Origin: Batillaria attramentaria | Taxonomy: Eukaryota; Mollusca; Gastropoda; Batillariidae | Direction: 5' to 3' | Assembly: GCA_018292915.2 (NCBI GenBank) | Contig: JACVVK020000213.1 | Span: 58,501-122,500, forward strand | DNA: 64,000 nt | Shown here: one piece after another, positions 638-31,840 of the stretch | How positions within the stretch are numbered: the stretch's first letter is position 1 | Layout of the letters: each line of letters opens with the position of its first letter | Translations under genes and position numbers: made by a program | Notes under the pieces: model-generated | What the model saw: the letters and a program-made list of their open reading frames with translations, nothing else | Database searches by the model: none | What the model was told of the DNA's origin: nothing

Positions 638-3600
638 GAAATTGCCAGGTTAAACCAGGAGCATGCCACCAATGAGCTGAACTTCAAGGCCTTGAAGAAG
701 AAAATCATCGCTACAGAGTAAGTTTGTTACCATAACAGGGGTGGCATTTATGGCATATATTTTTCCGTATGTATTGCATTTTGGGGACACCCTATGCCGA
801 TTAAACTAATCTATTGTCAATTACCACAGGAGGGCAGTCACTGAGTCAGCGGTGCGCGATGCGAGTTTGATTACGCTGGTCACTAGCCAGTTGAGTGACA
901 ATAGGAAACGTTTCTGACACTTTGTTTGGTTCCCTTTACAGATTGATGTCATAAAAGTTAAAAAATCATCTGTATTTCTTTTAGTGCCATACGCATTTTT
1001 ACCGATCCCATGCTTTTTCTGTTGCAAAATGCATAACACTGCCACAGCCCTTGTAACATTGCTGAGTTGACCCAGAACGTGCTCTATTTCAAATTTGAAC
1101 ACACATTGTGATAGTAATCCCTACATGTATAACAGTGTACGTGTACCCGTTGCGCGAACCGTGATGAACGGTATGGAGATACAGGGAAGTACCGGTAAAG
1201 TTGACAGTCAGGTCTTACCAAAAGCCAGTTCCTTCTTGGGTACTTCTAAATTTCACCTCGTAAAGTACAGTTAATTTCCAGTAAACACTGTCACCGTTCG
1301 TCTGATCCTGAAGTGTGTCACAGGTTTTTTGGTGTTTTGACTTCGTTAGACAGTGTGTTGGTTGCATTTCAGTCTTTATCGCACATAATTTACATGAACT
1401 AGAGCCACAATAATTGTGACTGTTGTTTGGCAGTTTCTTAATGCTGTGTTCTTTTCTGTTTTTCAGTCAGCTGCTTCGACAGTACAGAGCCAAGTCACTT
1501 GATATCCTTTTGAACGAATTGTTGACAAACATTATACTGACATGGAATAGTCACATGTTTTATCATAGTCCAGGTTTTGTCCCAGATATAGACCGAAAAC
1601 AGTTGCTTTTCTGTTCTTCTTACATAAGTCGTTCCAGAGCATTATATATTTTGGCTTTTACTTTTTTTTCTTTCTGGGTCGCCAGAGTTTGCATAATACA
1701 CTTATTTACACAGTATTTTGTGTTGCGCTTTATTCATACTCTGCATGGGCAGACCTAAAGCCTTAGACCCCAGTTGATCCCTGGCCTTTCAGTATGATTT
1801 GTGAATTGTAAATTCATTTTTTTTTTTTTTTTTAAATACTTTAGGAGGGGGGGGGGGGGTATTTCCAGGTTAGCACTGGTCAGTGTGTCTTCTGCACTGT
1901 ACACGCCGGATAGTTTGCTTTGCTTTGTCATGTTAAGAAACAAACAGAAACTGTGTGCGTTTCCTTAACTCACAGCACAGTGTGAAATGCAGAACAAGCA
2001 GATTGAGGAATGGGTCAGAAAGTACGAGAAAAACCAAAGGTAAGTGCTTCTGCCATAGTGCACCTAAAGTTTCTAGTCATTTTGTTCACACTTTGTCGCA
2101 ACTGACCCCACCCCACAGTAATTAAAGTAAAATTTTTGTACTATTATATAGTTTAGAAGCTGTTAATGTAATTTACACGATTTGTGATAACCGTTTTTGA
2201 TTGACAGTATCTGTAACTTGTCGGCTCTGTGACATGAATTTTGTTAACAGTTTCTTGGACACGGTCCAGTGTGAGTTTTTCCACACACAAAAAAAGATTT
2301 ATTACTGGTAGTGGAAGATTATTTCATTTGGGAGAAGGTTGAAAATTATGCCATGGGTGGTAAATGGTTGTCTGTTTGAAAGCTTGTAAGTTGGGTGGTC
2401 AGCCTTCAGGTGCAAGCTAATTGCCATTCAAAGGGAATGAATTCCCGTTGAAATTGGCAGGTTACCTCCCTTGGATCAGGTGTCTGCTTGCACTCTCTGT
2501 GATTGACATCACTTGCAGCAACTGTAGACACCAACCAGCCATCAGGAATGCCTTTTTCCTGGATTCTGTGACTGTCAGTATCACATCACTCATTGCGCTG
2601 ATCTAGATTAATGATTATGTGTGTTTTTGTGTGAGTTTGCACATTACTTGAAATTATTAAACGGTTGTTCGTGCATGAACTAAAGAGCGATATCTCAATG
2701 TTGATTGTTTACAGGGAGCTGACCGTGCTTGAGGCGCAGCTGATGAACGCCCTTGAAGAGATGGAGCCTGTGAAGAAGGTACAGATTCATTCCTTACATC
2801 CCATTCCCTATTTATCAGGGTTGGGTTTTTATTTTGGGGTTTTTTGTGTTTATTTTTGTCATGTTGTTTGTTTAGCCAACAGAAGCGTAGTCAATATCAC
2901 AGCGAACACACCGAGTGAGTACGTTGTAGCAACACCAACTGCTCAGTCATAGAATATGAATGGTCAGCTGCTTGTGCAAAGTGTACGTTTACATTTACAC
3001 GTACATTGGATCACATTCATCAGGGTGTAAAATCTTCCACCTTTCGGCGGATTTCCACTTTAGCGACAAGTTTTTCTCCCCCCAAAAAGTGTGTTTCCTT
3101 CTCTCAAGCACTGAAAATCATTCCAAAACACACCAAATTGTACAGATTTTTTTTATTTAAAAAAAAAAAAATGGAGCAAGCATATCCCCAGCCACCCCCT
3201 AGCAAAATGCATCTGCTTTGCAGAGGCAGAGGCGCGCTCGTGGCTTTGCCACCTCGTCAATAAATGTCACACACTTTTCATCCTTATGGGTCAAGCCCTG
3301 ATTAGTAGCTCTACTGATCATCGAGATGGAGTATTTCGTGGGTACAAGCGCACTCCTGAGCGAAATTAGTATTTCGCTGCAAAAGTTAATTTGGTTTAGT
3401 AAACATGGAAATGGTGGGTAGATACCACACAACTCTGACAGGCATAGCACACATGCTGCTGGCACTGCTTTACTGGATCAGTTACGCCTGTTGTGTGCTC
3501 TTATGTTCTGATCGTTGCATACATGCTCAGTGTGGAGTCTGGTTTGCATAATTACGTCTTTGTTGCTTGTTTCAACAGGCCAAGAAGGAGCTGGAAGCAG

Positions 3601-6600
3601 CCCTGGGCAAAAAGGATGAAGAGATCGAGCGATTACAAATAAAGTTGGATTCGGCTGAGGTAAGCTGCATCACAGGAAGACGTAGAGCTGTCCATCTGTG
3701 TTGATCGCCCATTGTTTGGTTTGTATTTGTACTGGGTGATCGGTGGTCTAGTGGTTAAGAGACCGCCATCAGTGCAAGAGGTCAGGTTTGATTTCCACTC
3801 AGGGTGAAGAATTTTTCCTTCTCGTACGTGGGCTGATCGCCGGGGGTTCTCTCCAGGTACTCTGTCTTCCTCCCCCTCTGCTTTGGCAATGTTCAACCCA
3901 CGAAATTTGAAAAAAAAAAAAAATCCTAAATTCCAAAACTTAAATAGTTTAGCTAACCCTTTGCACCACATGATAGTAATGTGTTACGGCCAGTGTGTGA
4001 GAGAATGTGTGTGATTCACGTGAGCGTGCGTCTTGGGTTCAGCTTGTGGTGCTTTTGGTCAGTTCAAGACATTGGGTAAAGCGCTCGCACAATACACAGA
4101 TAGTATTCTTACTATAAGTTTAGTGTATGTATCCAAGAATGCTTACGAGTGTTTCATTAGATTCGTTGCCTGCAACGAGCACTAGCTGTTTCAACATGTA
4201 GCAGTGGTAGGAAGTTACAGTAACAGTTTATGAAATGCAGTGTCTTGTACATATATATAGTGATGCCAGCATTCATAATTTAGTTTCCTTTGCAATCTTG
4301 TGGCTACTGTTGGGTTTTGTGTATAATGCAGCCTTTAAAAGATTGTGTTTGATATTGTGTGTTTCAGTCACTCAACAACCAGTACGAGATGCGGCTGGCC
4401 ACTATAGAATTGACACACCGTAACGCCGATGATGCTGTATCTGATAGCAAGAAGAAAATGAACGCTCTCGAGCAAGGGTAAAATAATTTTTTTTTGCTTC
4501 TGCTGGAGAATAGATGCCTTGTCAGTACATGTGCATGAATGTGCACATACACAGACTTGCACACACACATGCATGTGACAGACACACACACACATGCACA
4601 CACACTCATGCAGACACACACGTACACACACACAGCATGGACGAACGTTCTACTTGTAGATTGACTTATTTTTCTCTTTCCTTTTTTTTTAAATGCTTGA
4701 GCATGACGAGAATGCACAAATTAGCACTATGCCTTAATAAGGTGTTGAAAGATGTGTGTTGCTGTCAAAATCAGTGTTTTTTTTCTCTTTCCTTTTTTTT
4801 TTTTTTTTTTAATGCTTGAGCATGACGAGAATGCACAAATTAGCACTATGCCTTAATAAGGTGTTGAAAGATGTGTGTTGCTGTCAAACTCAGTGCATGT
4901 CAGTGCTGTGTTTGGTATGGTTATGATATTAATCTTTCGTTTCTACAGCTAAATGTCTACGTGACTTCTCTGTTTTCTTTTTCAGCAAGAAGAAGCTTTT
5001 GGGGAGAATCAAGAAACTGAAAGGTAAGGATGATTTTTTTTTTTTTTTTTTTTTTAATGCTTTGAATGTGACAAGTTTTGGTTTTGAATACAGTATTCGC
5101 TGAGAGATTGTGAGGGTGTGCTGTTAAGTAATTGCCATGTAATTTTACCGCTGTGAATATTTTACATGAGTAACTTGCGGTGACGAATAACTTTAATCTT
5201 CCCTGTAACTTGTGGTAAGTGCAGTCTTGACAGGAACCTGTTTTTGTGTCAGTATCATCTGGGCAACCACACCTCTCCCGTTGGCATTCAGTTTTACACA
5301 TGTTGTGTACACGTACACTTAGCCATTGAAGCCCACTGACATTTCCTGGCACGTTTTAATATAAATATAATTAAATCTTTATATCTGTACACACTGAGTA
5401 ATGAAGGAAAAAAAATGGGAAGTGGAGAAAGATTTATGACACAGCCGTACTTCCTTTGGTGGCAGAAGAAACCAAATACATGTCCGTAAGTTCTCGCAAA
5501 GTAAATACATGTCCTGAAGTACTGTTCTTGCATAAATCTAACGTCAAAGGAAGAGTAATACTTAGATTTGGATCATGCATTAGAAACAAACAATAAACAC
5601 ACACACAAACACAAACACCAACCCCTTTCCCTGGTTGCACGGAAAACAAAAAATCTCAAAAACTCTAAATGGTTTGTTAAATATCAGAAACATTTTGTTT
5701 TTCCGTTGGCAAATTACATGGCTACGAGGGCTTATAAGAGGATAGTGATGATCTGCATAAAATACTAACACGAAGTACCAAGTGCATGGTCATCAGCCAT
5801 TTTTGATACAACTAACCTCTCTCTCTCGCTCTCTCTCTCTTTCTCTGAAGAACTAATGTTCACTTGTTCACCCTTGTTTCACATTTTCACAACACAACAG
5901 TGGCACAACTCTCACTCTCAGCAGGTGGATATATGAATAATGATACATTACACTCACTCAAAGGTTATTGGCCTAGTAACACTGGCTGCGCGGCAATGAA
6001 ACATACAGGTAGTTTTGAATTTCAGGGTGCACAGCAAACTAGCATAGTACTCTTGGGTAACTCTCAGTTGTTTTCACAATGTCACTGATGACAAAGAAGT
6101 TCTCTTTGAAAACAGTACTAGGCTGTCTTACACAGGAACGCTTCTTGCAGGTAGCGTACTCTGGTTTAATTGTTGGAACTTTGGTGCAACTTGCTTTTGA
6201 GAATAACTATGGTGAAGCACAAAGGTATGCATGTCCAATCAACTGACACATTGTCACAAGTTTGTTATACTAAAACCCCTTCACAGCAGTATTGTATAAC
6301 AATGTCTATGTCATCGTGGACTTCATCATCCTTGAACTGTAAGCCGTTTGGCTTTTCACACCTCCGGTTTCTTTTTTCGCCTTTTTTGGAAGAAGGTGTA
6401 CACTGCACATCCGAAAAATATTACCACCAAACCAGCGTTAATCCCAACGATGATCATCCCTTCCGTAAAGTATGTAGGCATCTCGTACACGTGAATCTCG
6501 GCAATGAGCTTGTGCGCCCCGTCGCTAGTCTGGCACAGGTACTGCCCGTGGAAGTTTTTGGTGGTGGAGACGATCATCAGCGTTCCATTGATGGCATGCA

Positions 6601-7918
6601 TCTGCAGCGATTCATTGGCTGGGATGCGATTCCCACTCGTGTTGGTGTTTCCCACATACCAGATGACCGAGAGACCTTCTAGAGAAGTCTCACACGTGAC
6701 TTCTGTGGTTTCACCGAGTTGTACAGCAGTGATCAGGGCACTGAGGGTTAGAGGTTCCTCCTCTTCATCTTGCGCTGTTGCAGATGTCGCAAGAATTACA
6801 AGAAGCAGCAGCAGAAAATACCGTGATGCAGCCATATTTTGTAATGACGTGTTGCAAATTTGTCCAAAGTTTTCCAAGTTCTCTTAGGGTGCTGCAGTCA
6901 TCTGTAACAGCAAAAAAAAAAAAAAAAAAAATACAATGTGTATACCTAGAAATCATAATACTAATTTGATTTAAATAGGTGCTTTACCTAGTTCTTTGGG
7001 TCAAAAGGCGGCGAACTGAACCTAGCACGCACGCTCACGTGAATCACATGTATTCTCTCACACACTGTACATCAGCACAATCATCACACAAGCTTCAAGG
7101 AGTCAGCTCAGCTATTTGAGAATGAACCAGATTGTACTTGCAAGATTCCCTGCCACAGTTTCAGAAGAGATTCTGAGTTTAGCACATTTCATTTTTGTCT
7201 TGCAAGGCACATACTGCTACCACTAACCTCCTGTACTCTCATCACACTCAAAATGATCTGCAACTTTCCCAATAAATTTTAAAATTTAGGGTTTTTACAA
7301 ACAGCATGCAGCGGGCTGTAGGTCACAGTATGTCTGAACAAGTCCTTTTACATTTTTTACTTTGCCTTTCTCTCCATGCTTGGAAAGGTAATATGATAAT
7401 AAATCACTTCTTATCAGGTCTGTTTGATGGGTTAGATCTTGGCCGCTCGCAACCCGGTGAATGGTCCTGGAAGGGAACACAGCGGCATTCCAATACCTTT
7501 CGGTTTCTGCACAGCTGTAGAACGAAACTTGTCCTCCAAAATAGAAGTAGTCTTCAGTCTTCTTTTATGTGTGTACCATTAAAACGGTTGTGGATATGTG
7601 CATATCTAGGTTGTCCCCACTTGCCTTACATTTGCACCAGGCTTTTTTTTTGTGGGGGGGGGGGGGGGGGTCGCGTATCAGATTGAGAGCGTTTGTACCT
7701 TGTCAATGCACGACTCCCCGCCGAGGAGAATTTGAAACGAGTATGTGCAGACCTGTGCAGTTTGGCAGTTGATTTGTTGTATGGTATCGTTTACAGTACC
7801 TCGTGTCAAAGCGGGGTACGCCTGGCCGAATTCAACAGCTGTGCGTCGCCTTCAAAGGACTGTTGTAAACACCTCGCGGTGTCAATGTTCTGCCCATTCA
7901 TTTTGTCATGCTTACAGC

Positions 7919-7953
<35 letters not shown>

Positions 7954-10900
7954 TCTCTCTCTCTCTTACTCTTATAAAGGTGTTTACCACAATACAGATT
8001 TACCGTAGTTCCAAGATAAATCAGCCGAAAATGGGAATTACATCAAACTCTAGCTTACTGCTGTAGTAAAGCTGGTGCACCTTTCGTAAAGTTTTCTATT
8101 GATTTATGGTAGGCAACCCTCATTCTGATTCCCCGGGGGGAGGGGGGGGGGGAGAAGGGAGAATCAAGGATTCACCGTAGCACCAATTGTCCTAAGGTGG
8201 ACAGCAGTTTCGCTGACTTGTCTTGCTCAGTAGTGTCAGTGGGTCGTTCAGAGTGACATAAAAGGACAGGAATGGCGGGCAAGATTAATCAGGCGTTAAT
8301 CGGGGTGCCCGTCTACTTATCTAACTGTCTGGGAAAAGGCCGTAAAGGGTGCTCGTCAGGACATTGCGTTGGCCCCATTTCTCAAATGACGGTTCATTAT
8401 GTATGACGGTACACACATGTAAAAATGTTTCAACCCAGAAGTTGAACGTGATTGTCGCGGTCTTCTGTAGGGGGTCGGGGTGTGTGTGTGTGTGTGGGGG
8501 GGGGGGGGGGGTATGAGATAATTGTTGCTGAGTGAAGTGGATTCTGCATGTCTGAGCGATCAAGTAAACGCATACCTGTCAGATTCTAGGTGAAGAGTCG
8601 AATGCAGTCAGCAAGGTGCTTCTGTTCAGGCTACTGTGTCACCTAGTGCATACCGACAGAAACTGGCCACAGAAATGGCAGTGGGTCAGAACTTGTACAT
8701 GTACTCTGCTTTGCGCGAACTCAGATTACGCATGCAGGTTTTTGTTTGAACGGACACATGTAGGTGCGGACAGATGTTCTTAGCCATGACCTGGGTCTCT
8801 TGTCATCACATTCTGATCAAAGCAAAATGTTGACCCATATGCATCCAATACCTGATAGCTTAATCAACGTTTGAGTAATATATTGGTGATGGTGCATGCT
8901 GTGTGTGGCCGTGAGCGGCTTGTACTTACGTGTAATCGGTGCATGCAGAAACATCATCATCATAATAATAAATGGTATTTGTAGGGCGCTTTTCTGTACA
9001 GTAGAAATCAATGCACCGATCACTTACCGATGCTCACGCACATTTTTTACGAAGATGGACAGTCATACACTCGTAAAGCTGACTAGTTACATGGGAAATT
9101 GTTGGAAGGCTGTGCAAAATAGGAACGTTTTAAAATTGCTCTTAAATACAGACAGTTTAGGCATGTTTCTCCGATTCACAGGCAGTGAGTTCCATAAGGT
9201 TGGTGCAAAGAGAAAGAGCACTCAGCAAAATATATCAAGCTGTACTTTGGAATTTTGAGAAGTCTCTCAGATGACGACACATGTAAGTTTGTCTCTAGTA
9301 CATGTTTTAACACCCCCCCCCCCCAAAAAAAAAACAAAACAAAAAAAACAACAACAAACAAACAAACATACAAACCAACAACAACAACAAAAGCAACATA
9401 CTAACACGGAAGAAGGGAGGATGGGCGGAAGTCTTGCTTTGTTGTTAAGGCTTCTGTTCAGGGCAGAAATTTGGTTGGGGATTTTTCCCCCAACAAATGG
9501 AGTCATAATTGTGACGATGCCTGCCTGACCTGTGTACACACACACACACACATCAAGTGTGCACATTTAAACAACTGTTCCAAACAGGAAGGGCAGTGGA
9601 ATTGAGAATGGATAACCAGCACGCACAACTACCCGGACACTCGTCCTCAGCAGGTTGACGTTGGACAGAAAAATAGAACAAGAACTTGTGAGAGATATGA
9701 TCAGGGTGTAAGATCTGAGGTCATTACTCATCGTCTTCCATTCTGTCTCCGGCGTTGATAGGTTAAACAATAAGAGGGTGCAAGGTGCTGTGGAATGTAG
9801 GTGACAAGACCGGCTTCTCACAATCATTGAAAACATCAGATATGGACGCCTACATAACTTTGCTTACCTGTATTCGCACACCTCGCTCAGTACTCATTCT
9901 GATGTCACCGTGCCATTGCTACACCCCACTACGATCCAACCGACAGCGAAGTTTCAGCAACAAGTACCCTCCCCAGTTTTAAGTGATCATTGAAGCGTGG
10001 ACGTTGAGCGTTCGTTCACCTTCCACGCTAGGCACTTCTCGTGCACAGGGTTGGGTTGAAACTGAAAGAGGCCCTCTGCTCCAAAGTCAGTGAACCGTTC
10101 ACGTTTACAGCGATAGGACAATGTACCTGTTCCCTGTGTAGGAGAAGTTGGGATATCGAAGCGACAAGCACAGGGGAACCCTTCCAAAACATGTGAAACA
10201 TGTTTATTACAATCCATGGCATTCAGAGCTCAGCAGACTATTGCAGACTTTGTATTCTGAATGTTTGGTTTTGCTGCAAAGAGTGGAAGATTTTTTTTTT
10301 TTTTTTTTTTGCACTTAATGTTTTCCATCATGACTATACAGAACTGAACACTGTAAATGGTGGTTGCTAGCACTTCTACTTACTGGTGCACTTGTGAGTA
10401 CTACTGGGTACTTTGATTGACACCAGTGACTTTTTAAGTGGTCCTCTCTCTGTGTCTCTCTCTCTCTCTGTCTGTCTGTCTCTCTGTCTCTCTTTAAGTC
10501 GCAAGACGGCAGTAAGGTGAGCAGTGCTTAACTTCCTCCTTCATGTGGGGGGGGGGGGGAACTTAAGTAGCGTTGACTTGATGAGCCCCATAATATGATT
10601 AGTAGTCATATTTGCAACTATAGCTGTGGTAGCATAATCTGTACAGTGCAGCTGTTTATCATCAGCAGTGGAATGTTCACTGTAGGTCAGTGGTGTACTT
10701 TAGAGCCCTGGTCATAACCGGGTCGTCACAGTCAGGTGTCCCTGTCTCTCCTCCTGAGGGGAATCCTGATTCGGCTGTTGTGTCTGAATGTCACCGAGTA
10801 GGAATAAACTAAAGTGCGGTCACATTAGGAGGGTACCCTATTGTGCGCACACACACGCACCTGTGTGACAGAGGAAGCCCACATTCTTCATACCATTACT

Positions 10901-11729
10901 ACAGGGGAGAGACACAGACATGGCATTCCCCCCTCCCTCCCTCCCCCTTACACAGTGACACTTTCAAAAAAGACCTGAATAGTATAGTCTGAAGTATAGT
11001 TCAGTATAAGTTGGTTGAAGTAATACATCAGAGTTTCAAGTCTTCCACCTTTGGCGGATTTCCTCCTTTGGCCCCAAAATTTCCCTTCCCTGAAAAACTG
11101 TTTCCTCAGAAACATTTGAAATCATTCCAAAACACCCAAAATCACAGACATGTTAGTATTATTTGTAAAAAAATTGCCTTAAAAAAGGTGTTTCTTTCTC
11201 TAAAGCGCATAATAATGAATATTGTGTAGGCGCTTTTCCCAATTTCATGAATCGGCTCAAAGCGCCGCGAACTGAACCAAACACTCACGTGAATCGCACG
11301 CATCCTCTCATACACTGGACATAAGCACATTACAGTCACGTGGTGCGAAGGGTCAGCTCAGCTATTTAAATTTGGAATTTAGAATTGCGTTTATTTTTCA
11401 AATTTGGTGAGCAGGGTACCTACATTCATTCTAATGTCACCATACCCTACATTTCCACATCAGTTCAAAGCACTAAACTGCACAGATTTTAGGGATTTTT
11501 TTGTTGTGGTTTTTTTTGTTGTTTTTTTTTTTTTTTTGGGGGGGGGGGGTGGTTTGTTTGCTTTTTTTTAAATTTTGGGGGAGCATGCCTGGGAACATCC
11601 CTAGCATACCGGTGTAGCATCCGGTCCGGTCCCCCCTCTGAAGTAGTCCCCCGAAACTGCTCTAAGCAAAGTGTTGTAGCGTTTTATTTACTTTTTAATT
11701 TCTTATAAGTGTCAGGAACATTTCTAGAT

Positions 11730-11770
<41 letters not shown>

Positions 11771-12805
11771 CTCTGAATATAACTGTTGTCTGATACACAT
11801 AAAAAGCAACAAATAAACAAACAAAACACCGTCTCCAGGCTCACCCAAACAGCAACAATAAATACAGGATTCTCGAATTTCAACTCAGAAAAATGTCATC
11901 TAACATCGTGGATGAATTTAGGTTTATTTCTTTGCAAGGGGGGACCATTATAGAGCAGTTTTTGCCACGAATTGGTCCCCCGGGGGACTACTTCAGAGGG
12001 GGGACCGGACCGGATCCTACACCGGTAACATGTTTGCTTTGCAGATGCACTCTAGTGGGTTTACCACTTTGTACTGCAGATGCACTCTAGTGGGTTTACC
12101 ACTTTGTACTGCAGATGCACTCTAGTGGGTTTACCACTTTGTACTGCAGATGCACTCTAGTGGGTTTACCACTTTGTACTGCAGATGCACTCTAGTGGGT
12201 TTACCACTTTGTACTGCAGATGCACTCTAGTGGGTTTACCACTTTGTACTGCAGATGCACTCTAGTGGGTTTACCACTTTGTACTGCAGATGCACTCTAG
12301 TGGGTTTACCACTTTGTACTGCAGATGCACTCTAGTGGGTTTACCACTTTGTCACTAAATGTTTCACACTTTTCCTTGTTTTTGATCATGGACACACTGT
12401 AGCACAAGTTCATTTCAAAATATACAGTATTGCAATCACAACATTACTCACCTGTGCTGATCAGAGAACAGGTCACGTCTGTTCCAAAATCAGATGTCTA
12501 CCCCAGTGGCACACATTTACGTTCTACAGTGCTTAACACTGAACATTTGCAGTCATGCATACGTGTAGAGGATGTCCCATCTCAGGTGTCCTATCTTGGC
12601 TGCGTCCAGCAGTTATGTGTCATAGCTTGAGCCGAAGGGGCGATCGTGATAAGTTTGTATGTACCCTTGACCTCATACCAGGATCCTTAGCCACCCAAAT
12701 CGGATCACAAGTAGGTGTATCGGGCACAGCTCTGCTGCATGTCACCCGACTCGATATGCCTTTGCAGGGGGGCTGTGGTATGCTTTGTAATCACACATAC
12801 ACACG

Positions 12806-12842
<37 letters not shown>

Positions 12843-13679
12843 AATAATACAATTTTTCTGTCTTATTTGGGGCGGTCAGTGGCGTAGAGATAACACCTCC
12901 TGCCACCACTGTAAAAGATTGAGGGTTTGAGTCCCACTTGGGGCAAGGAATTCTTTAACCAAATATGTAGCGCTGCCCATTCAGGCTGATCTTCAGGGGT
13001 TTTATGTAGGTACTCCAGCCTCCTTCCCCCTCCGCTTTGAAAATGTTCAGCCCACAAAAATTCAAAATAAATGCAGTTGTGAATTCCAAAACTTCAATAC
13101 AACATGATTCATGTCGTACTGTGTTTAGATCCTGTGTGTGAGAGAAGGCTTGTGATTCAACTTGTGTTGTGTTCAACTAGTGGCGCTTTTAGCCAAGAAA
13201 TTGGGAAAAAAGCCTACATAATTATGTATTTTTACTTACCTGTGGGGGCGTACACGCACATCACATGTTTAGAGGGTGAGAGAGTCTCCTGTTTTCTATG
13301 CTTTCGCCAACACAAAATTGTTAACATGTTACTCTGACCCCTTTACGCGTGCACACAAAATTAAACAGGGAAATTAAACAACATGTACAAGAGATCTACG
13401 GATTTTCTGCTTCTGTGCCAGCTATCACGCTTTTCAAAGAGCTGCCTTTTACTCACACATTCTACGCTTTTTTGTAATCGGGAGTTCGAGAAATTAGCAT
13501 GAAGGTGCAGCTTCTCCTGCATGTCCTGGGTTTATACCGCCCGGTAGACCAGTTTGCATCCTTTGTCCAACGTTACATTTTTGTTTTTTGTTGTTTTTTT
13601 TTCATGTAGTGCAGGCACACTCAGCCGTGAATTAGTCTTTGTGGCTTGCACGGCTTCAAGCCCTAAAAACTCACTCTGC

Positions 13680-13745
<66 letters not shown>

Positions 13746-16427
13746 CCCTCCCCCCATATCACCATTCCCCACCCTCACACACGTTTACAAATGTCCATAA
13801 CTGAAATGACGTCATGAGAGGCATGTTAAATTATGCTCCTACAAATCAACCATGATTTTGTAAAAAAGGTCCAAGCAACATGGATTATAGAAGCACTTGA
13901 GCCCTGCACTAGAGATCTGCAATGAATAGGGGATGAGCTTTCTGTCCTCTTGACAACATCATCCCCCAAATATGTGACAGTTTTGTTTTGTGTCTTTTGC
14001 AGATGAAAATAAACAAGCGAAACTGGAGGCGACGCAGAGCAAGCGGGCCGTGAATCGACTGGAGGGACGACTCAAGAAAACGGAGGTGCGTCACGGTGCT
14101 ACTCAGAAAATCTCTTCTTTTTTTTTTTGGTTCACTTTTTGTCACTTGAAACCAGTTTCAGTGTTCCCTGTGGTTCGAAAATATTAGGGTCCTTGGGACC
14201 CTCTCTCTTATAATTATTTGAGGGTCCTTTTGTAAACTTTGAGGGTCCATGGTATTTTGGTATAAAAAGTCTGAAAGTCAAAACCATTTGTTGTGGCATG
14301 TTTACAGAAGTACTGATTAAAGTATGAGATATATATATATATATATATACATAGAATTGTAGCATGTCGGCCATAGCGAATTGGCAGGGCGACGAAACTG
14401 CTCACTCCCAAAACAGAGCATTTTGATTGGACAAAAAGTGTCCCAGAGTGCTTAAGCCAGTCTGCGAGAGTGGTGGCAAAATGCTGTCTGTTACGGTGAG
14501 ACAAAAAAAAGTGCGTCCCTTGTGACACGCTGTTCTCAAATTTGTGCGTCAATTTAAGAGTTTTGTGCGTACAAACACGCACACCTGTGCGTAATGGGAA
14601 CACTGCAGTTCGTACCAGATAAGTGATGCAACTTATTATCCCTGCTCATGTATAGAACCCTGGAAGGGCAGTAAACACGTTATATGAACACACACTGTTT
14701 GATGTCTGTGCTAGTATCTTGGTTCATGTGACAATTTGTTTTTCTCTCCTTCATCATGATTGTAGGGCGCCTAGAGCTGGAGTACTTCATGTGTAGACGT
14801 CGTATGAGTCATCTGTATGATGATGATGATAATGATGATTGTCTGGTCCCCGGTTTTCTTTACAACAGTAATACAACAACCACTACCAATAAACGTCTCT
14901 TAATTTACGTACAATGTGTGGAATCAACTATGGTAAATCATTTTGCGATCACTTGCTGAAATAAGCGCACGGTACAGTCATCAGTGTTTTTTCTTGCGCA
15001 CATATATGTGCATCATTTACACAGATTTCAGAATCGGACGTAGAAATTTGAGGCTGTATGTCACTGATTTTGCAAAATGACCCTCTGAATTCAACAAAGA
15101 AGGTCAAAGTGACCCTCAGTTTTGAAAGCTGTAATGAACACTGGGTCATTCTATTTCAGAAGTAAAGTATAAATTTACTGGTCATTCTGTTTCAGAAGTA
15201 AAGTATTTACTGGTCATTCTATTTCAGAAGTAAAGTATTTACTGGTCATTCTGTTTCAGAAGTAAAGTATTTACTGGTCATTCTGTTTCAGAAGTAAAGT
15301 ATTTACTGGTCATTCTATTTCAGAAGTAAAGTATTTACTGGTCATTCTATTTCAGAAGTAAAGTATTTACTGGTCATTCTGTTTCAGAAGTAAAGTATTT
15401 ACTGGTCATTCTATTTCAGAAGTAAAGTATTTACTAGTCATTCTATTTTAGAAGTAAAGTATTTACTGGTCGTTCTGTTTCAGAAGTAAAGTATTTACTG
15501 GTCATTCTGTTTCAGAAGTAAAGTATTTACTGGTCATTCTATTTCAGAAGTAAAGTATTTACTGGTCATTCTGTTTCAGAAGTAAAGTATTTACTGGTCA
15601 TTCTATTTCAGAAGTAAAGTATTAACTGGTCATTCTATTTCAGAAGTAAAGTATTAACTGTGCATATGTTACTTAATCTATTACATGTGTTGATCACTCA
15701 CCTCGTCTGTTTGTTTTGTTTTTCATCCCGAACAGGTTCTGCTGTCGCAGTGTTTGCAGATGTTGGCAGACAATGGTAAGTATATACAGTGCAGTGACCA
15801 TTTAATTTGTAGTACTTACAGGTGATCTTTTGCTGCTGATAAGGGTGGATGTACTTTTGAAATCAAACTCGCGAAATGAATGCATCTGTGGATGAAGGTG
15901 CTGTGCTAGGTAGTTAAGACTTTGCCAGTAGTCTTGCCTGAAATGCATGTACCAGAAAAGTAAAGCAAGAAATTCTGTTGCTTGAAGTAAATGCTTGATT
16001 GGTGTGCATTAAATAAAAATTAAATAACATCTAGAAACAGGGATATCTAAGGCCTGAGTCATTAGAATCAACACACATGGAGAAATGAGAAAACAAAATT
16101 TTCATCAGATTTAGGATCTTAACGTCCTTGGTCAGATTTGTTGTATAGTTGTACATACATGTACAGTAGTTCACTGCAGTTAGAACCTTTTATTTGTGCT
16201 GAATAAAAAGATTTGATTGAGATCATGACGTTCTGCTGGTGTAACTGCATGTGATTGTCATCATGGTCTTCCTGGTTTTTCAGGCCTCATGGCTGCAAGC
16301 AAAGCAAAGAGGGCGCTGGCCAGGGTGGGTCGCCTGGACAAAAAAGTGGACTCGGAAGGGGATTCGGATGAGTACTCAGACATGGACTCGGATCTTACGG
16401 ATACCGAAGAGACCCCTGCTGCAAAAA
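638..16427 (+). CDS. ICE1: ICE1 N-terminal coiled-coil exons 1-10 (of those in window)
   Basis: Ten short exons (35-144 nt) encode residues 1-245 in window numbering. They are dominated by K/E/L heptads such as ELTVLEAQLMNALEEMEPVK and KKELEAALGKKDEEIERLQI, a classical parallel coiled coil. After the coil comes an acidic stretch (DSEGDSDEYSDMDSDLTDTE) ending at 16427. Phases at the junctions are 2,1,2,0,0,2,1,0,1,1, all consistent with one frame. The junction 717/1467 builds the conserved TD pair, and 1501/1979 joins codon G|AG across the AT-AC intron. In the human protein this region mediates assembly; here that is inferred from homology only. Confidence 0.82.
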
Positions 16428-19400
16428 GTAAGTGATGACACAATGCGTTTGTTGCACATGCTTTGTCAGCACAGGTTTAGGTAAATTGATGCAGATTACG
16501 TGTATTAACTCAATTCTTACCGAGGATGTTTGGGGTTGTTGTGCACCAGTGGTCTCACCAATTAAAAAAAAAAAATTTCACCGGCCCCCGTAGTGTAGTG
16601 GTTAGCACTTCGGACCAGGACCGGGAGACCCGGGTTCAAATCCCAGCCGAGACAAGCGGGATTTTTCCTACCTAGGTCGGCTCCTACCCAGAGCGGGTGT
16701 GCTATGGGCCCAATGGGGAGGCTGTTGCCACACAGCCGAGCTTCACCCACTTCACGGGTGCGACTTTGGGGGTGCTTCCCTTGGTATGACACGTCTTATG
16801 ATGTGGATGATTACACGGCCGGCACCGCAGGTGCCGTAGTTCCCGGGCCTGGTGAACACCGGGATATTTATGACAGGAAGCGTGGAATGCGGCCCTGTCC
16901 CGCAGTCCCAAACCACATGGACCTCCATAGCATCATCTTACCATCATCATCTCCATCATCATGCATAATAAAAATTGCCCCAGCCTTCGAGCCCTCCGTG
17001 GATTCCACCCATGACCTGGGAGGAACACCACTGGAGCTGGCAAAAAGAGTTGGGGCAGCAAAAAAAAAAAAATAAAAAAAATTTCAGTTTGGCTTAGTGA
17101 GTGTGTCGATTATACTCGTGCTTGCTGCAACAAGAGCTGTCAAGGAACTGTAAATCATACCTGATTTTCGCATACATGGCCAAAACTGAAAAGGAGTCAA
17201 CAACGTGGGATACGTGTGTGCGGCACGAAATGTGTTAAATGATATAATTTGATGGGGAGGGAATTTCAGATTTCAAAATGGATTGTGTTTAGGTGGTGAG
17301 CATGGATACCGAACGGTTGAAATCGATCTGTAGCAACTCTTCGTATTTTGCATGGATAGACCAGCATTTTGAAGTACAGTCGCAGACATTGGAACCAAAA
17401 ATATATGGGACACCTGTTTTTTAAGGCTTGGCTATTTGTCATAAAGAGAAACTTTTTGCTTTTGCTCACGAGCAAGACATACTTGTTTATGAAATGTGAT
17501 GTGTAGCCCTCAAGCATACTTTATTCAGTTTTGATTTCAATGATTTTTTTTTTTCCAGATGTTAATACTCAAGTTGCTGAACCTGCTGAGAATGGAAAAG
17601 AAAAGGATGCTAAGGCTCCTGAAGTTGTTGCTGAGAAGGCAGTGCCTGTCCGAAAGTTACCGGTACAGAGGACGACAGCAGCTAGTAAAACAAACCCTGC
17701 CCCCAGTGCCGGAGACTGGATGTCTGAGATTGACAGCATGTTTGGATCTCTGCTGCCTCTTCATTCACCGCTGCCAGTGTCACCAGTTCCTGTAAGTGCT
17801 GTTTATTTGTTTTGGTTTATTTACAGTCCATCTTAACGACATGTGCTAGTGCACCTATTGATTTAAACTTACATTTTCCATGTTTCTTTAAAGAGTAACA
17901 GGCCAGTAGAACTGTTCACAGCGTAATAAGCATAGTGTCATTTTAACCCTGTGCTGAGTTTCAGCCTTATTGGAGTTTTCAGCACTGAGTTACAAGCAGA
18001 GGTGTGTGATATCTGTAAGTTTTGGACGTAACCCTTCACACAAATCACCCTGAGATTTGGCGATTATTATCCCCCAAAATAAACCACTGTCCTTCGGAGG
18101 AAAAGTTACTTGTGAGGATGACAAAATCATGTATTGTGGGGTTATGTGTCGGTGCACTGCTGTTCAACCTGCACTCTCTGAACTGTTCTTTTGCATTTCA
18201 GAACCCCATGAGCTGTGAGGAGGACAGTGATGGAGGAGATCTACTGTCTGACCATGCACCAAGCCCAACAGAAGTACGTGAAAACTTGGGCGACGACGTT
18301 TTGTGTTCTCCTGTCAAAGAGGAAGAAAACTCACCAGACATCGAGATGGCGCCTTCAGTCAGCGAAAATCACTCAGTGGTTGATGCTTCAGCTCCTGCTT
18401 GTACTGGAGCAAGCAAGAGTTCTGTGCCAAGGCAACATATTGTGTCAAGTGAGAGTGCTGACGCACATACACAGGATGTTCAGCATACTCTTACAGGTCA
18501 GTCCTTGGAACAGAAACCTGCATTGCTAGGGGAGCCATTGACTACACCTTTGCCAGCAGCGAGGAAACTTGTACGACAGTCATCGACTAGGGTGGAAAGC
18601 TCTGCCTCTGAAATATCACAGAGTGTGGTGAAAGAAAACTCCGTTGTGACTCAGTCACAAAGTGAGGCTAATGACACAGGAGACGTAAACAGTGTCAAAC
18701 AAAACAACCACATCACAGAGCTGCATTGCAAACCCAGTCCCGCCATAGAGAAGGAAAGCCAGGACTTGCCTGTAGACACAGAGCTACCTGTGCAGAGAGA
18801 GACTCGGTGTACATCTCCTGCAACTTCTTTTCTGAGATCAGACAGTATCGCTGATGATCGCCAAACAGCAGAAAGTCATACAGTGAAGGGTGAAAATGAC
18901 GCAAGTTATGCTGATGCTGTTACAGAATTTGAGTCGCCACGTAGAATTACCAGGCAAATGTCTGCGAAGCTTGTCACTGCAGATCCGGAGGTGTCAAAAA
19001 CTGTGCACGAGACGAACACGTGCAGTCCAGCCGTTAAAAACGATGAAGAAAGAATGCAAAATTCTGTCGATATACTACCTCCAAATCTAACGCCAAGGAG
19101 AATTACACGACAGACATCGAAAACTGCCACCGCAGCTTCAGAATCGCAGTCAGCAGCAAGCCCACTCAAGAAAGGCAAATGTGTCAGTGAAAGTATCCCA
19201 GATTCTCGTGTTACTTCATTAGGGGAAAATTCCTCAGAAAATGTGCAGGCTGCTGACAGGAACAAACTAAAGTCACCCCTGAAGATGACGGATAGCAAAC
19301 AGTACAGGGGAAAGATTTTTGCCTCGGAGTCTGAAACTGAATCGGAGATGCATGGAGAGACCAACATCGATGGTGACTGTGATGACTTTTTGTACTCACC

Positions 19401-22400
19401 TTCTGCAGCAAAACTGTCTCCCTTGCGACCGGCGTCCAGGTCAAGATCTCGGAACTTCAGTGAAAAAGAAAACGAAATGCCTTCAAGGGTTACGCCCTCA
19501 CCCGCAAAACGCTGCATTTCTTTCATGCAGAGTGATTCCCTCGTTTCTCCAAGTCTTCCCACAGCGGAATCCAAGCAGGGGAATGTCATGGAAGTGAATA
19601 ACTTATTTGGAGAGGTGGGGGATTTGGAGGACGAGGGGAAAGAGGAGATTAGTCCTGCAAAAGAGCAGAACCTTCCTGGAAGGATTACCCGCAGGACGTC
19701 CGCAAGACTGATGAGTCCTGCACAGTCTGAGGTTGCTGTCAGTGCAGAGAAGACGAAAGAGACAAGGGCTACTATAGAACGATCTGCATCAAAGCCATGC
19801 AGACAGACCTCATTAGTGCCACCATCAAAGGTGAAGAAACCAAGCTCTCTTTCCTTATCAACGTCATCAGAAAGTGATGATCTGTCATCAGACTCCTCTT
19901 TGTCTCCACTGGAAGAGCAGCCGAAGAGACCAGCACCGACAAAAAGACGAGTCGCACGGAAAGCAAAGAAACCCTCTCCTCCAGCATCAAAGCAGAATGC
20001 AGAAAACTCTCCTCGAACGCAGCAGAAGAGGTGTCCTCCTCCTAGGCAGCAGAAGAGGTGTCTGTCGGGCACAGCCGGAGGGTCACGCCCTCTGAATCTT
20101 GCGCTGGCCAAACTGCAGAACAGTCTACCCGAGGATGAGTCATCTTTGGAAAGTCTCCCTGTCGGTTCACCACTGCAAAAAAAGAAGCCACCTCTTATAA
20201 AGGAGTCTGACGAGGAAATGTCCGACAGCGAGAGCGTGTCTGTGGGCGAAACGAGAAACACGCCTGATCATACTGACTCTTCAGGGGACAGATCTTGTGT
20301 TCGTGCAGTCAAAAAATTCTCCTGGGCATCTGAGGGTTTTGCAACAGAGGATGTGCCAACGGAGAATGTGGATGCTGCAGATATCGCCGCCTCCACAGAA
20401 CGTTCGTGGTCTTTCACGTCACAGAGCAGCTGCAGCCCAAAGCAGGAAGGTCCGTGCCCGGTGTCTTCTCTAGCTCTTGACCTTGTAACAGGCAAAAGTG
20501 CTTCAGGAGAGTGTCCATCATTTGACGGCACCAGGTTTCCAGCAGATATCCACAAGCAAGAAATAAGTTGTTCAGCAAGTTCTAGGACGGAAATGGTAGA
20601 GGCCCATAAACGTACCTCACTTGTCGTAGAATCGGACTTAGTCTCTGCAGGTGATAGAAGCAAGTTCACGGAAAACGGTACAACAGAGACTGGTGCTAAT
20701 GAAGGGGTGGTTGAATCTGTTTCTGAACCATCTAAAGCTGTGAACAGCTCTGCTTTGAAGCACAGTATTTCACCAGGAGGTGTAACCGAGAGTGTTGCTG
20801 TCTGTGATACGGAAATAGAAGACGCTGGACTTGGCTCACAAGCAAACTTGAAAAGTGAGCTTGAGGAAAAGCAAGACACCACACAGTCGGTGCTCAGCAA
20901 AGCTGCTGCTTTCACTAGTGTCAGTGGAAGTGACAGGAACGACGTTCGCCCTTCCGGTTCAAGGAGCTTGAAGCCCTGTGATGAAATTTGCCTGAGTGAA
21001 ATTGAGGCTGACTGGAAGACGGAGGACTCTGCTGTCGCTCCGCACATCTTGCGGCCTAAGGCGCGTTTTTTGCCTGTGCATTCCGCTGGCGAGCCATCGC
21101 ATCCTGTCTGCAGTAGTAGCACTGTGACCTTCCCGGTGAATGGTGCTGGTGATTTATCTCCTGCCGGTGATTTAACTCCTGCTGGTGATTTAACCCCAGC
21201 TGGTGATTGTCCTTGTGCGTGTGAGCTTTCGTCTGGAGGAGGGAATGTTGACAAATCTGACAAGCAGTCAGAAGTGAGTTTGACTTCATTGACTGGATTC
21301 ACCACTGTTGACAGGGTTTCTCAGAATGAGAAGAACATAGCTGTATGTGCATCACCGAAGGAGCAATACACTGCTCATCCAAGTTGTGATCTGAAGAATT
21401 CTATAGCGGATGTGCCGGTCTCATCTGCTGACAACCCTCTTTCTTGTGTGATTTCATCATTAACCTCCGAAGAGATCTCACAGAAAATCTACAAACTTGG
21501 GTCTGAAGGTCTACAAGAGACCTCCAAAGAAATCCGTGGACTTGGATCTAAAGGTCTACGAATCAGCGAGTGTGCAGAAGCTTATGTGCAAGATTCTCCT
21601 GTGGCAGGTAGGAAAAGGTTCAAGTCCTCGTCGCCGACAGCTTTTTCATCGAAGAACAACTCCAGACAGGAAGTCAACTGTGATTCATTAGACTTAGCAC
21701 GAGCCCCTGCGAAGCTAGGACTTGACAAGTCTGCTGTGAAGGTACTTGCTGCCTCAGGTGCTGGAAACACTAAATCTGAAAGTTTGCCTGTGGTGACTGA
21801 GAGTCCAGCATCTCCGGTTCCTGAGGCTGATACGGACATGGAGCTAGAGCAGGAGCAGTCAGTCGACAAGAAGCCATCAGTCACTACTGTCAACTCTGGC
21901 AGCAAAGTACAGGTATCTTGCAAAGCTGAACTCACAGACTCTCTGTGTATTTCAGCGTCCAGCCCCTCAAACACGTGTAGAATGTTGGGTGAGTCTGCAG
22001 AAAAACAGCCTGTGTCCGTTCAAGGGCAGATCACTGACAGAACTTCCTCAGTCTCCCCAGAAGCTGGCTCTGCTGACGGTGGTGAAACTGTGGAAGACCC
22101 GACAAATTACAAGAGTGGTTCACGTAGTGTAGTAGCTGAGGCCATAGCGGAGAGACCTTCCTCAGCAGGGAGTGGTGCTGGTACCGCTCTGTGCAGTTCT
22201 CCGTCCAGCTTGCGGCCGCCTTCAACAGACAGCTCCACCACCATCATCATGTGCCAGTCTCCGTCGGGCTGGCGACCTGCCTCCACACACAGTGACACTG
22301 CCATCACTCGGGTGACTTCAGAGGACATGCAGGTCACGCGGCCATCTTCTTCCAGCATTCCCTTGGCCTTTGATGCCGAGTCTGGCGGTAAAGACACTGA

Positions 22401-25400
22401 CATTGTTGCTGGGATGTCAACGCAGGATTCTCTTTCAGCTGGGATGGAGACGACGTCTGCTATGGATTCAGTGAGGTAAGCAAATTACAAATTTAATTAA
22501 AATTTTATGGCAGTTGCAGTGTACCGCAGTTCAAGTTATTGAGATCAGGTGTAGTTCAGACTAAATCGTTTTACACATGTATGTTAGAATTAGCCGATTG
22601 TATGACCGTGATGTAAAGTTCTTTTATTTCAAACTCAGTGCAAAAAATCTTTTCTTTTTTTTATATGCAGGTTTCAGACTTAAAGCTCACTTTCTTTTAT
22701 TTTGTGCAGTTCAGTGTGTCAGTCGTGTTTAGTTTTGAGTTCTGTGCTGTGAATAATTGTAATGTGTCTGCGTTTCTCTGTATTTGAACAACCCAATTTA
22801 CTTTTCAGAATGCAAAACTAAACTCAGTACTTTCTATAGTAATTAGAATAATGATAGGTTGATACTTGGGAAATATATTGCAGAGAATTTATAATGTGTA
22901 ACTGTCTTTGAGTGATCAGATTGATATTTTTCTGATGGTAAGGTCTTTTCTTTTCAGTGCTTGTGAACCTCAAGAGGGTTCACTGTCCTGGATTTTCAGC
23001 ATGTTCCTAGAGATGCCTGACCCTGTGCTTCCTCTCCCCCCATCACCAATACCTTTGGATAGAGTTCCGTCCCCTTCGAGCACTCTCCTGTCTTGGGTGT
23101 CAAAATCAGACAGGCCGGCTGCTACATCCAAACAGTCTTCATTCAAAACAGAACCTCCTTTGTCTCCTGTGTGTGAGGAACCGCCAGTCGTCACAGACCC
23201 AAGGACGCTGTTCACAGAGTACAAGCAAGAACCCTTCGATGGCGTCGAACCTGTGAAGTCAAGACGAAAAAGGAAGAAAAAGAAGAGGGGTGGCAAGTTG
23301 AATCCGGTGGTGCCAGCCGCTCCTCCATCGAACACTTGTGGCGGCTCTGGGTCGACGGCGGCTGGTCCGCGTATAGGTGTCAAGGTCACCGCAAGTTCTT
23401 GGGATGCAAACTGGCCTCAGAGCTCCGCCCTGACTCCTGTGGAGGCTGCCAAGAGGCAGATGGCGCTAAGGCAACAAGCGGCAGCAAAGTGAGTGGGATT
23501 TCAGAAAGACAAGTTTATTGAGACCTTGTGCTCCACTCAGCCATTGCAGAAGTAAAAAAGTAAAAGTGAAGAATTTTATGAAGGATCTGGAAAATTTTGT
23601 TTCCACATCCTATGGTTAATTGGGCAATGGCGCCATGGGCAGCATTTATGTATACATTGTATAGTCGATTGCCAATAAAAATTCTCAAAGATTTTGGGGT
23701 TTTGCAAATTACCAGCAAACAACAATGTTTGATACAGTCAAACCTGTGTAAGGCGGTCACCCAAGGGACTGGGTCAAACTGACTGCCTTAGACAGGTGAC
23801 CGGGTTATCCAGGGTGGCATGTCAACAGCTAGTGTGTCAGGGGATCCTCTGGGGTGACCAGGTTAGACAGTGGTTTGGCTTATACAGGTGACCGCCTTGG
23901 CAGGTTCGACTGTATTACTATTAGTATGTCAGAAGAGTTCTGCAGGTGTTTTGTCTTTCAGCACATTTTTATGAAAGATTTCTTCTAATTTGGTCGTCTT
24001 TTTCCACAGGAGTGATGCTTCAAAATCAAACCCAAGCAGATCTGCCTCACAGAGCATGGTCACATCAGCCCCGCCTACTTTGCCAGCAAAGAGGAAAAGC
24101 TCAGAGCAACTTTGCCCTCCTAGTCAACCAAAAAGGTCTTTGGCCAACTCCGCTGCCAGCAACACACGCAGGAGAGTGGACACAGGCAGCCATAGCGCCA
24201 CACCCACACAGAAAATGGTCACCCATGTTGGTATGGATATACAAACTGGAAAAGGAGCACATGACATAAGTTCTGCTGCTATGTTTTCAGAGAAAGCAGA
24301 AACAACAGACTCTGTCAGTCCGCTCATGATAGTCACAGAGAACGGAGACGCTCTGCATAATCCTGTTTCTGTAGTATCACAGGAAGCAGAAGTGAAACCT
24401 GTCACTATGGTCACGCAGAAGAAGACAGGTGCAGTCAGCGCTGTCTCCGTGGTTACTCAGAAAAAAGGAGACGCAAGCAACCCCGTTGCTATGGATACAC
24501 AGCAAACCGGTGTCTTCAAGGCTGTTTCCATGGTAATGCAAAAGGGGTCCGAGGGTGGTAATCTTCCTACCCAAGCCAAGAACAGAGTGGACAAACTTAA
24601 AGCCAGCCCGAGTACTGTGTCTACAGTACAGACAAGAACAGAGACCACAAAAGCTGTTCCTACATCAACAAAGATGAAAAACGGTGGTGGCAGCCTTGAG
24701 GAGAAAGTTGAAGGTGAGGAAAGAATTATTTCTTACAGTGTTACCCAATTTTGTCTGTGTTTCCGATAGCTTTCACACTAAAGGGTCCTAGGGACCCTAT
24801 TTTAGAGGGTTCTTTTGTAATGTCTGAGAGTATTGTTTTTTTGTTGTTGTTTTTTTTTGCCTTTCTTTTTTGTTTTGTTTCCATTTCTGACCCCTCCGGC
24901 AGTGTTGCTGAGTTTGGTGTTGGGGTTCACATGTTTCGTCATGGTTTAACTTGCCGGTCTCCTCTTCTGGCCAGTTGTTATACTTCGAGTTGAATCATCA
25001 CTAGTCATCACTACTCACGCAAATATTCTGTCGTCAGCTCTGAGCAGAGATCGTGCAAATGGGCAGGGCGGTACCAGAAAAACGTGTGTGTCCCCTGAGA
25101 CACAGTGACTTAAATTGTCTGTGTCATTTTCAGATTTCTGTGCGCACTTTACGCACTATAGTATGTGATCAGAAATTTATGCTGATGGTGGTCGCCTCCT
25201 TGGTGCTTTCAGTTGTCGGGCTTTGTTTTTAAAATGTTCACTGCACCACAGGGCCAGAGGGTGAAGCTTTGAATACTTGCTGCTGTTAAATCTTCATCCT
25301 GCTAGTATACTGTGGCTTGTGCGATTTGCTTCTGGTTTCTGTGCCACCAGACACATGGCTACTCTCCTTCAAAAGATGAACATTCGTTTTTTTAACTTTT

Positions 25401-31292: not shown

Positions 31293-31840
31293 ATGAGATT
31301 AGTATACCAGAGGAGTATTTAGACAGAATCATCTCCCCTTGGCAACTCAAGAGAATCAAGTAGACTGAATGACTGTGTTTTTGGTCATGTGGATGAGAGT
31401 AGTGGACCGCCGGAATAGAATCGTCTCTATTGTCTCTGTGGGCAGCGCAATAAAATTAAACTGTGTATAGAGGATTCTGGATGAATCAGAGTGTGTATGC
31501 CAGTGACACAGAATCCTTTCCCTCGGCAATGTATTATCCCTGGTAGTGCTGAGCCCAGAATATTCCAGGCTATGGCTTTTTCAGCAGAAGACAAAGGGTT
31601 AAAATCAAGGAGACTGTACCTGTATTTTGAGAATTTTGGAACAGAGGAATAACAGCTTGTGATGGTTGAAACCAAAGCATGTTGCCTTTCAAAGTCTAGT
31701 GAATCTTTTCCATCATGCGAGGCTCACACCACAAGGATGCCAAAGGAGTTACGAGTCAGAGTTATCTCCCCAGGCAACACTTTGAAGGAGAGTGTTCCTG
31801 TGTTTTGGAGAATTCGGGATGACCGCAGTGTTGACACCTG
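31207..31840 (+). repeat. Decayed ~98-bp tandem copies of the ICE1 terminal coding segment
   Basis: Units begin at 31209 (coding), 31307, 31406, 31500 and 31740. Each opens CC--AGGAGT----GACAGAATC or a decayed form and contains relatives of CTGGGCAACACGATAAAATC and TATCTGTATTTGGATAATTT. Spacing is 98, 99 and 94 bp, then a longer step with insertions. The last unit also keeps the upstream GGCTCACACCACAAGGATGC segment. Only the first is translated. Confidence 0.75.

Follow-up and report, generated by a model that had tools for sequence, protein, structure and literature searches.

A probable U12-type AT-AC intron near the 5' end of a gastropod ICE1 gene

ICE1 (little elongation complex subunit 1) is, according to papers on human cells and fly, an ELL-binding protein with a supporting role in snRNA transcription. 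The DNA analysed here, a stretch of 64,000 nucleotides from the snail Batillaria attramentaria (the window), contains this gene, and one of its introns carries the signals of the minor, U12-type class. The locus raises the questions of whether a gene that serves snRNA production is itself spliced by the minor spliceosome, and what such an arrangement would mean for its output.

Structure and identity of the gene

The ICE1 gene model occupies 638..31293 of the forward strand and comprises 22 exons in the window, which form one open frame of 2563 codons followed by a stop. Of the 21 introns between them, 20 are GT-AG and one, at 1502..1978 (+), is AT-AC. An exon of 32 residues just upstream of the window (MEEDIP...CEPCKTKDE), the donor of which straddles the window start, is likely the first coding exon; counting this putative exon 1, the AT-AC intron, which is 477 nt long and in phase 1, becomes the third of 22 and lies after codon 70 of about 2595. 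It is flanked by two very small exons, one of 35 nt (1467..1501, +) encoding coiled coil that ends in DQLLRQYRAKSL, and one of 61 nt (1979..2039, +) that ends in ECEMQNKQIEEWVRKYEKNQ. An exon finder run at lower thresholds added nothing to the exons already in the model. A single exon of 4274 nt (18202-22475) stands out by its length and includes an internal 18-bp coding repeat at 21144-21208.

The identity of the gene is based on the conserved C-terminal exons (25552..31293, +). In a protein search, the 409 C-terminal residues (2155-2563) matched, with an E-value of 8.6e-33, a Sinanodonta record entitled 'Little elongation complex subu...' and, with an E-value of 3.1e-11, an Owenia protein. 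For the latter, the ICE1 C-terminal Pfam domain PF25817 is precomputed, and on rescoring it reached 25.6 bits, just under the cut-off of 27. Pfam gave no match to the window's own C-terminal part or to the Sinanodonta protein, and 14 weak matches, all under the cut-off, to the spliced N-terminal part; solved structures gave no match to the C-terminal part. The N-terminal part matches Owenia at 33% over 171 amino acids, and its first 210 residues match proteins of Babylonia areolata (50%) and Nucella lapillus (47%) in a protein search. Since the Babylonia and Nucella records are not among the matches of the C-terminal search, their assignment to ICE1 comes from the N-terminal part only. A profile search with members including Sinanodonta and Owenia, which scored the 7977 candidates with the most words in common, returned Owenia only and missed Sinanodonta, and a search of viral contigs yielded four pattern matches and no relative. 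By its protein matches, the gene is the gastropod orthologue of ICE1.

The window contains several other features. A 175-residue open frame on the opposite strand (6359-6883, -) lies inside a 9-kb ICE1 intron (5024-14002); inspection by eye suggests a signal peptide plus a membrane segment, and there is an Ig-like stretch (Ig_3, E 2.4e-5, under the cut-off). A perfect tandem repeat of 35 bp in 8.9 copies lies within an ICE1 intron (12040-12352). Another, of 32 bp in 16 copies with 95% matches (15144-15660), is located just before a real exon at 15736; in its consensus unit a TTTCAG resembling a 3' splice site precedes a donor-like GTAAAG. An open frame at 38588-40495 (-) with matches to reverse transcriptase and RNase H is probably a retroelement fragment. 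Two matches to the tRNA family on the forward strand, at 16584-16654 (29.5 bits) and 42062-42133 (35.8 bits), score near the gathering threshold of 29; because window positions 42058-42584 match a second genomic copy of the 16584-16654 element plus downstream sequence at 88%, and 37177-37393 aligns with part of the region of that copy, both look like tRNA-derived SINEs.

Splice signals and the RNAs that could read them

The U12-type 5' splice site has the consensus [A/G]TATCCTT, and the U12-type branch site resembles TTCCTTRAY and lies about 10-15 nt from the 3' end of the intron; the donor is read by U11 and then by U6atac, and the branch site by U12. The original prediction had placed a donor at 1502, a branch site at 1961-1969 and a terminal AC at 1977-1978, and all three are found exactly there: the 5' splice site ATATCCTTTT (1502..1511, +), the core of which, ATATCCTTT, agrees with the consensus, the branch site TTCCTTAAC (1961..1969, +) and the AC (1977..1978, +). 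With 1968 taken as the branch A, the branch site conforms to the rule at a distance of 10 nt from the intron end. Possible alternative ends nearby are an AG at 1974-1975, which is in frame and adds one residue, and an AG at 1979-1980. Scored with approximate matrices built from the U12 consensus, the donor ATATCCTTT obtained 14.3 of a maximum of 15.9, compared with -3.2 or less for the other 20 ICE1 donors; the branch site TTCCTTAAC obtained 14.5, the maximum, and the best sites near other intron ends did not exceed 8.0.

Single motifs were rejected as evidence, their counts in the 64-kb window being at chance level: RTATCCTT occurs three times, with 2.94 occurrences expected, and TTCCTTAAC twice, with 0.57 expected. 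Neither motif is rare on this scale; it is the ordered donor-branch pair that counts. Two such pairs with the signals at most 500 nt apart are present in the window, that of the minor intron and one at 25910/25978, and of 400 dinucleotide-shuffled versions of the window, 7 had at least one. When the 477-nt intron itself was shuffled, both signals appeared in order anywhere in 56 of 607,962 shuffles, a count that does not require the donor to be at the exon end and for which the patterns were picked after the site had been seen. The second pair (25910-26001, +) lies within a GT-AG intron of ICE1 (25671-26424) and consists of GTATCCTTC, then TTCCTTAAC at 25978, with a CAACAG whose last base is 26001; the surrounding 150 nt or so are identical on a second genomic copy. 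Given the frequency of pairs in the shuffles, both within 500 nt and within 1000 nt (at least one pair in 19 of 400), it may be a chance occurrence or a small minor-spliceosome cassette.

A stretch of 29 identical bases is found once more in the genome, on contig C432. Since the DNA around that site agrees with the window at 93-98% over the long blocks of alignment in the retrieved pieces, the second copy is taken to be, apparently, the other haplotype. Between 630 and 2790 the two copies differ in 31 columns, 27 of which fall in major introns; the remaining four form two 2-nt indels in the minor intron that leave its splice signals unchanged, and the four exons compared have no differing column.

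The host genome (715 Mb, 863 contigs) was also scanned for the snRNA families U11, U4atac and U6atac. Matches above the cut-off numbered one for U11, two for U6atac and one for U4atac, and each search gave no match in 14 control genomes; three of the four minor snRNAs were thus found, the fourth being U12. Potential pairing extends over 8 nt between donor positions 4-11 (1505-1512) and the 5' end of the snail's own U11, and over 7 nt between positions 4-10 (1505-1511) and its own U6atac, in both cases with one G-U pair. For the other 20 ICE1 donors, the best-scoring runs listed with U11 or U6atac are 5 nt or shorter.

Choice of the splice junction and traces in related proteins

The original prediction had also stated that only this splice keeps the reading frame, which is wrong as worded. 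Joins were enumerated with GT, GC or AT donors starting at 1471-1600 and AG or AC acceptors before 1800-2035; of these, 90 are free of stops and rejoin the downstream frame (14 GT-AG, 8 GC-AG, 42 AT-AG and 26 AT-AC), including the donor at 1502 joined to the AG at 1975. When the length of the protein is kept, 68 of 91 placements are stop-free, and four of these have termini within the five classes checked, one AT-AC and three AT-AG; the intron 1502-1978 is the only one of the stop-free placements with a U12 donor. It is homology that separates these joins. Owenia ICE1 aligns without gaps across the 1501/1979 junction, and against it the AT-AC product scores 98.6 bits, that of the join to AG 1975 93.6 bits, two products of internal GT-AG joins 76.6 and 82.8 bits, and the product lacking both small exons 63.9 bits. 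An AT-AG join of 1504-1980 reaches 100 bits, slightly above the AT-AC product; its donor, ATCCTTTTG, does not follow the U12 consensus. This join and the AT-AG join ending at 1975 are alternatives compatible with the frame.

Use of the AG at 1975 with the U12 donor at 1502, either throughout or in a minor isoform with one more residue, would keep the frame and end the intron on a CAG (1973-1975), but this AG is just 7 nt from the presumed branch A and its product loses 5 bits against Owenia with one more gap position, so that we regard such a junction as very improbable. We give next to no credence to the view that the signals match by chance and that the major spliceosome makes a GT-AG join instead, shortening the coiled coil: in-frame GT-AG joins do exist and the Sinanodonta protein model is without the stretch at the junction, but no GT-AG placement keeps the length, the two internal joins scored lose 16-22 bits against Owenia, and the exon-3 residues QEKEIEEWVRKYEK are kept in the Babylonia and Nucella models.

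The 1501/1979 junction can also be followed in four relatives obtained from three protein searches (Babylonia, Nucella, Sinanodonta and Owenia), the comparison being one of proteins rather than DNA. Three of the four deviate from the expected protein at or around the junction. The Babylonia protein reads ...FRAK-TV-DILF-C-CAKQEKEIEEW, where DILF corresponds to a G followed by ATATCCTTT and a pyrimidine, in the same frame that yields SL-DILL when the window sequence is read on into its intron; across the proteins of all four relatives (7379 residues), this junction is the one place where ATATCCTTT can be encoded in phase 1. The Nucella protein reads ...FKAN...VWSLTCIQCLKQEKEIEEW, and its residues SLT can encode TCCTTAAC, the branch site minus its first T, about 9 nt before the exon-3 homologue by a hand count that assumes the exon to start with AGTGT as in the window. 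By chance, a 14-residue insert would contain a branch-like 8-mer of this kind about 0.04 times; the full 9-mer TTCCTTRAY cannot be encoded in the Nucella insert. No branch remnant was seen in the Babylonia protein and no donor remnant in the Nucella protein. In the Sinanodonta protein, everything between LLIKK and the next exon is missing, and the Owenia protein is contiguous at the junction with no trace of an intron.

In a reading made after the fact and from proteins, DILF of Babylonia and SLT of Nucella seem to be translated remnants of the donor and the branch site, respectively, which suggests that the AT-AC intron is probably common at least to these snails and often mis-annotated; gene predictors would read into or around it because they seek GT-AG introns. 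If the intron is shared, the Babylonia and Nucella DNA should contain ATATCCTT and TCCTTAAC at the junction. At the resolution of single bases, the locus illustrates how minor introns can disrupt gene models, two of the four records apparently including translated pieces of intron and one lacking the stretch.

The original prediction of a U12-type AT-AC intron in ICE1 is supported by the splice signals, the gene model, the allelic copy and the minor snRNAs of the same genome and, indirectly, by the proteins of the snail relatives. With a probability of about 0.93, in our estimate, this is a genuine U12-type AT-AC intron of gastropod ICE1, probably common to other snails, that is removed by the minor spliceosome.

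ICE1 output and the supply of snRNAs

On this preferred reading, a U12-type AT-AC intron, the donor ATATCCTTT would be recognized by U11 and then by U6atac and the branch site TTCCTTAAC by U12, and joining 1501 to 1979 would yield an uninterrupted N-terminal coiled coil. If the intron is retained, the first in-frame stop is the TAA at 1756..1758 (+). The two flanking exons add up to 96 nt (35 + 61), so that skipping both stays in frame, and skipping either one breaks it. When minor splicing falls short, the transcript might either retain the intron, with a stop at 1756, or skip both small exons and encode an in-frame protein minus 32 coiled-coil residues; skipping of exons that flank minor introns is a reported response to loss of the minor spliceosome (PMC8034651). 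Given the retention stop and the in-frame double skip, ICE1 output should depend on minor-spliceosome capacity, as in other genes with minor introns.

Mouse Ice1 has already been listed as a minor-intron gene (PMC8034651); as far as their available portions go, this is the only one of PMC8034651, PMC6199344, PMC5493778 and PMC3937775 that describes ICE1 in this way. The mouse and snail introns are in the same gene and belong to the same minor class; the available part of that paper gives neither the position nor the terminal dinucleotides. Two other systems invite comparison. INTS7 and INTS10 are likewise snRNA-making genes with minor introns, the retention of which is accompanied by less protein and 3'-extended snRNAs (PMC9881141), but there the evidence is from human patients and Integrator acts in 3'-end processing, whereas the ICE1 complex acts in transcription. 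In SNRNP48 and RNPC3, which contain U11-binding splicing enhancers (PMC8034651), U11 also acts on genes of the minor spliceosome, but it activates an upstream major 3' splice site, in contrast to the single complete minor intron of snail ICE1. Molluscs are relatively rich in minor introns (PMC10639083). Within the literature searched, the molluscan AT-AC form, the potential pairing with the snail's own snRNAs and the apparent annotation remnants are new.

The original prediction went further and proposed a feedback between snRNA supply and ICE1, an idea that is unproven and that we consider doubtful. In its homeostatic form, minor-spliceosome capacity would set ICE1 splicing, ICE1 would set the Pol II transcription of U11, U12 and U4atac, and the intron would have been kept for this regulation, which seems unlikely. 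ICE1 does act as the scaffold in the complex driving Pol II snRNA genes (PMC5493778; PMC3937775). In a fly TDP-43 model, knock-down of its complex partner Ell restores the raised U12 and the splicing of some U12-type introns, but the raised snRNAs do not include U11 or U4atac (PMC6199344). In the sister system, RNU4ATAC patients combine minor-intron retention in INTS7 and INTS10 with 3'-extended snRNAs, but work cited in the same paper saw no change in snRNA levels when Integrator subunits were depleted (PMC9881141). Minor introns occur in four of 14 Integrator subunits (PMC9881141); with background rates between 2% (PMC8034651) and 3.75%, the latter from about 750 genes in an assumed total of 20,000, this gives P = 0.0001-0.0015, a post hoc value for a group picked after reading.

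Several further observations speak against the loop. In Roifman and Lowry-Wood cells, U11, U12 and U4atac are raised about 2-fold and U6atac is unchanged, which the authors regard as likely compensatory (PMC8034651); since a self-reinforcing loop predicts a fall of these snRNAs, the rise disfavours its simplest form. Among the snRNAs it is U6atac that is limiting, and this RNA is transcribed by Pol III with a dependence on Pol II (PMC3728624). Minor introns occur in about 2% of genes (PMC8034651), and their functional biases may largely follow gene age, according to a pan-eukaryote survey (PMC10639083). Feedback between ICE1 and snRNAs was not found among the matches listed for the literature on U12-type introns, ICE1 and snRNA transcription. 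It is a speculative and improbable suggestion that the ICE1 minor intron has persisted in animals from molluscs to mammals for its coupling of the Pol II transcription of minor snRNAs to minor-spliceosome activity, forming, with the minor introns of Integrator, one loop by which the splicing machine senses its own supply.

Should such a coupling exist, the two tiny flanking exons, which are jointly in frame, would allow a coiled-coil-deleted ICE1 to be made under short supply, and the loop would go some way to account for the persistence of minor introns in genes for snRNA production. The present analysis finds, close to the 5' end of a molluscan gene for snRNA transcription, a probable minor intron of the AT-AC type and suggests that the status of ICE1 as a minor-intron gene is common to snails and mammals.
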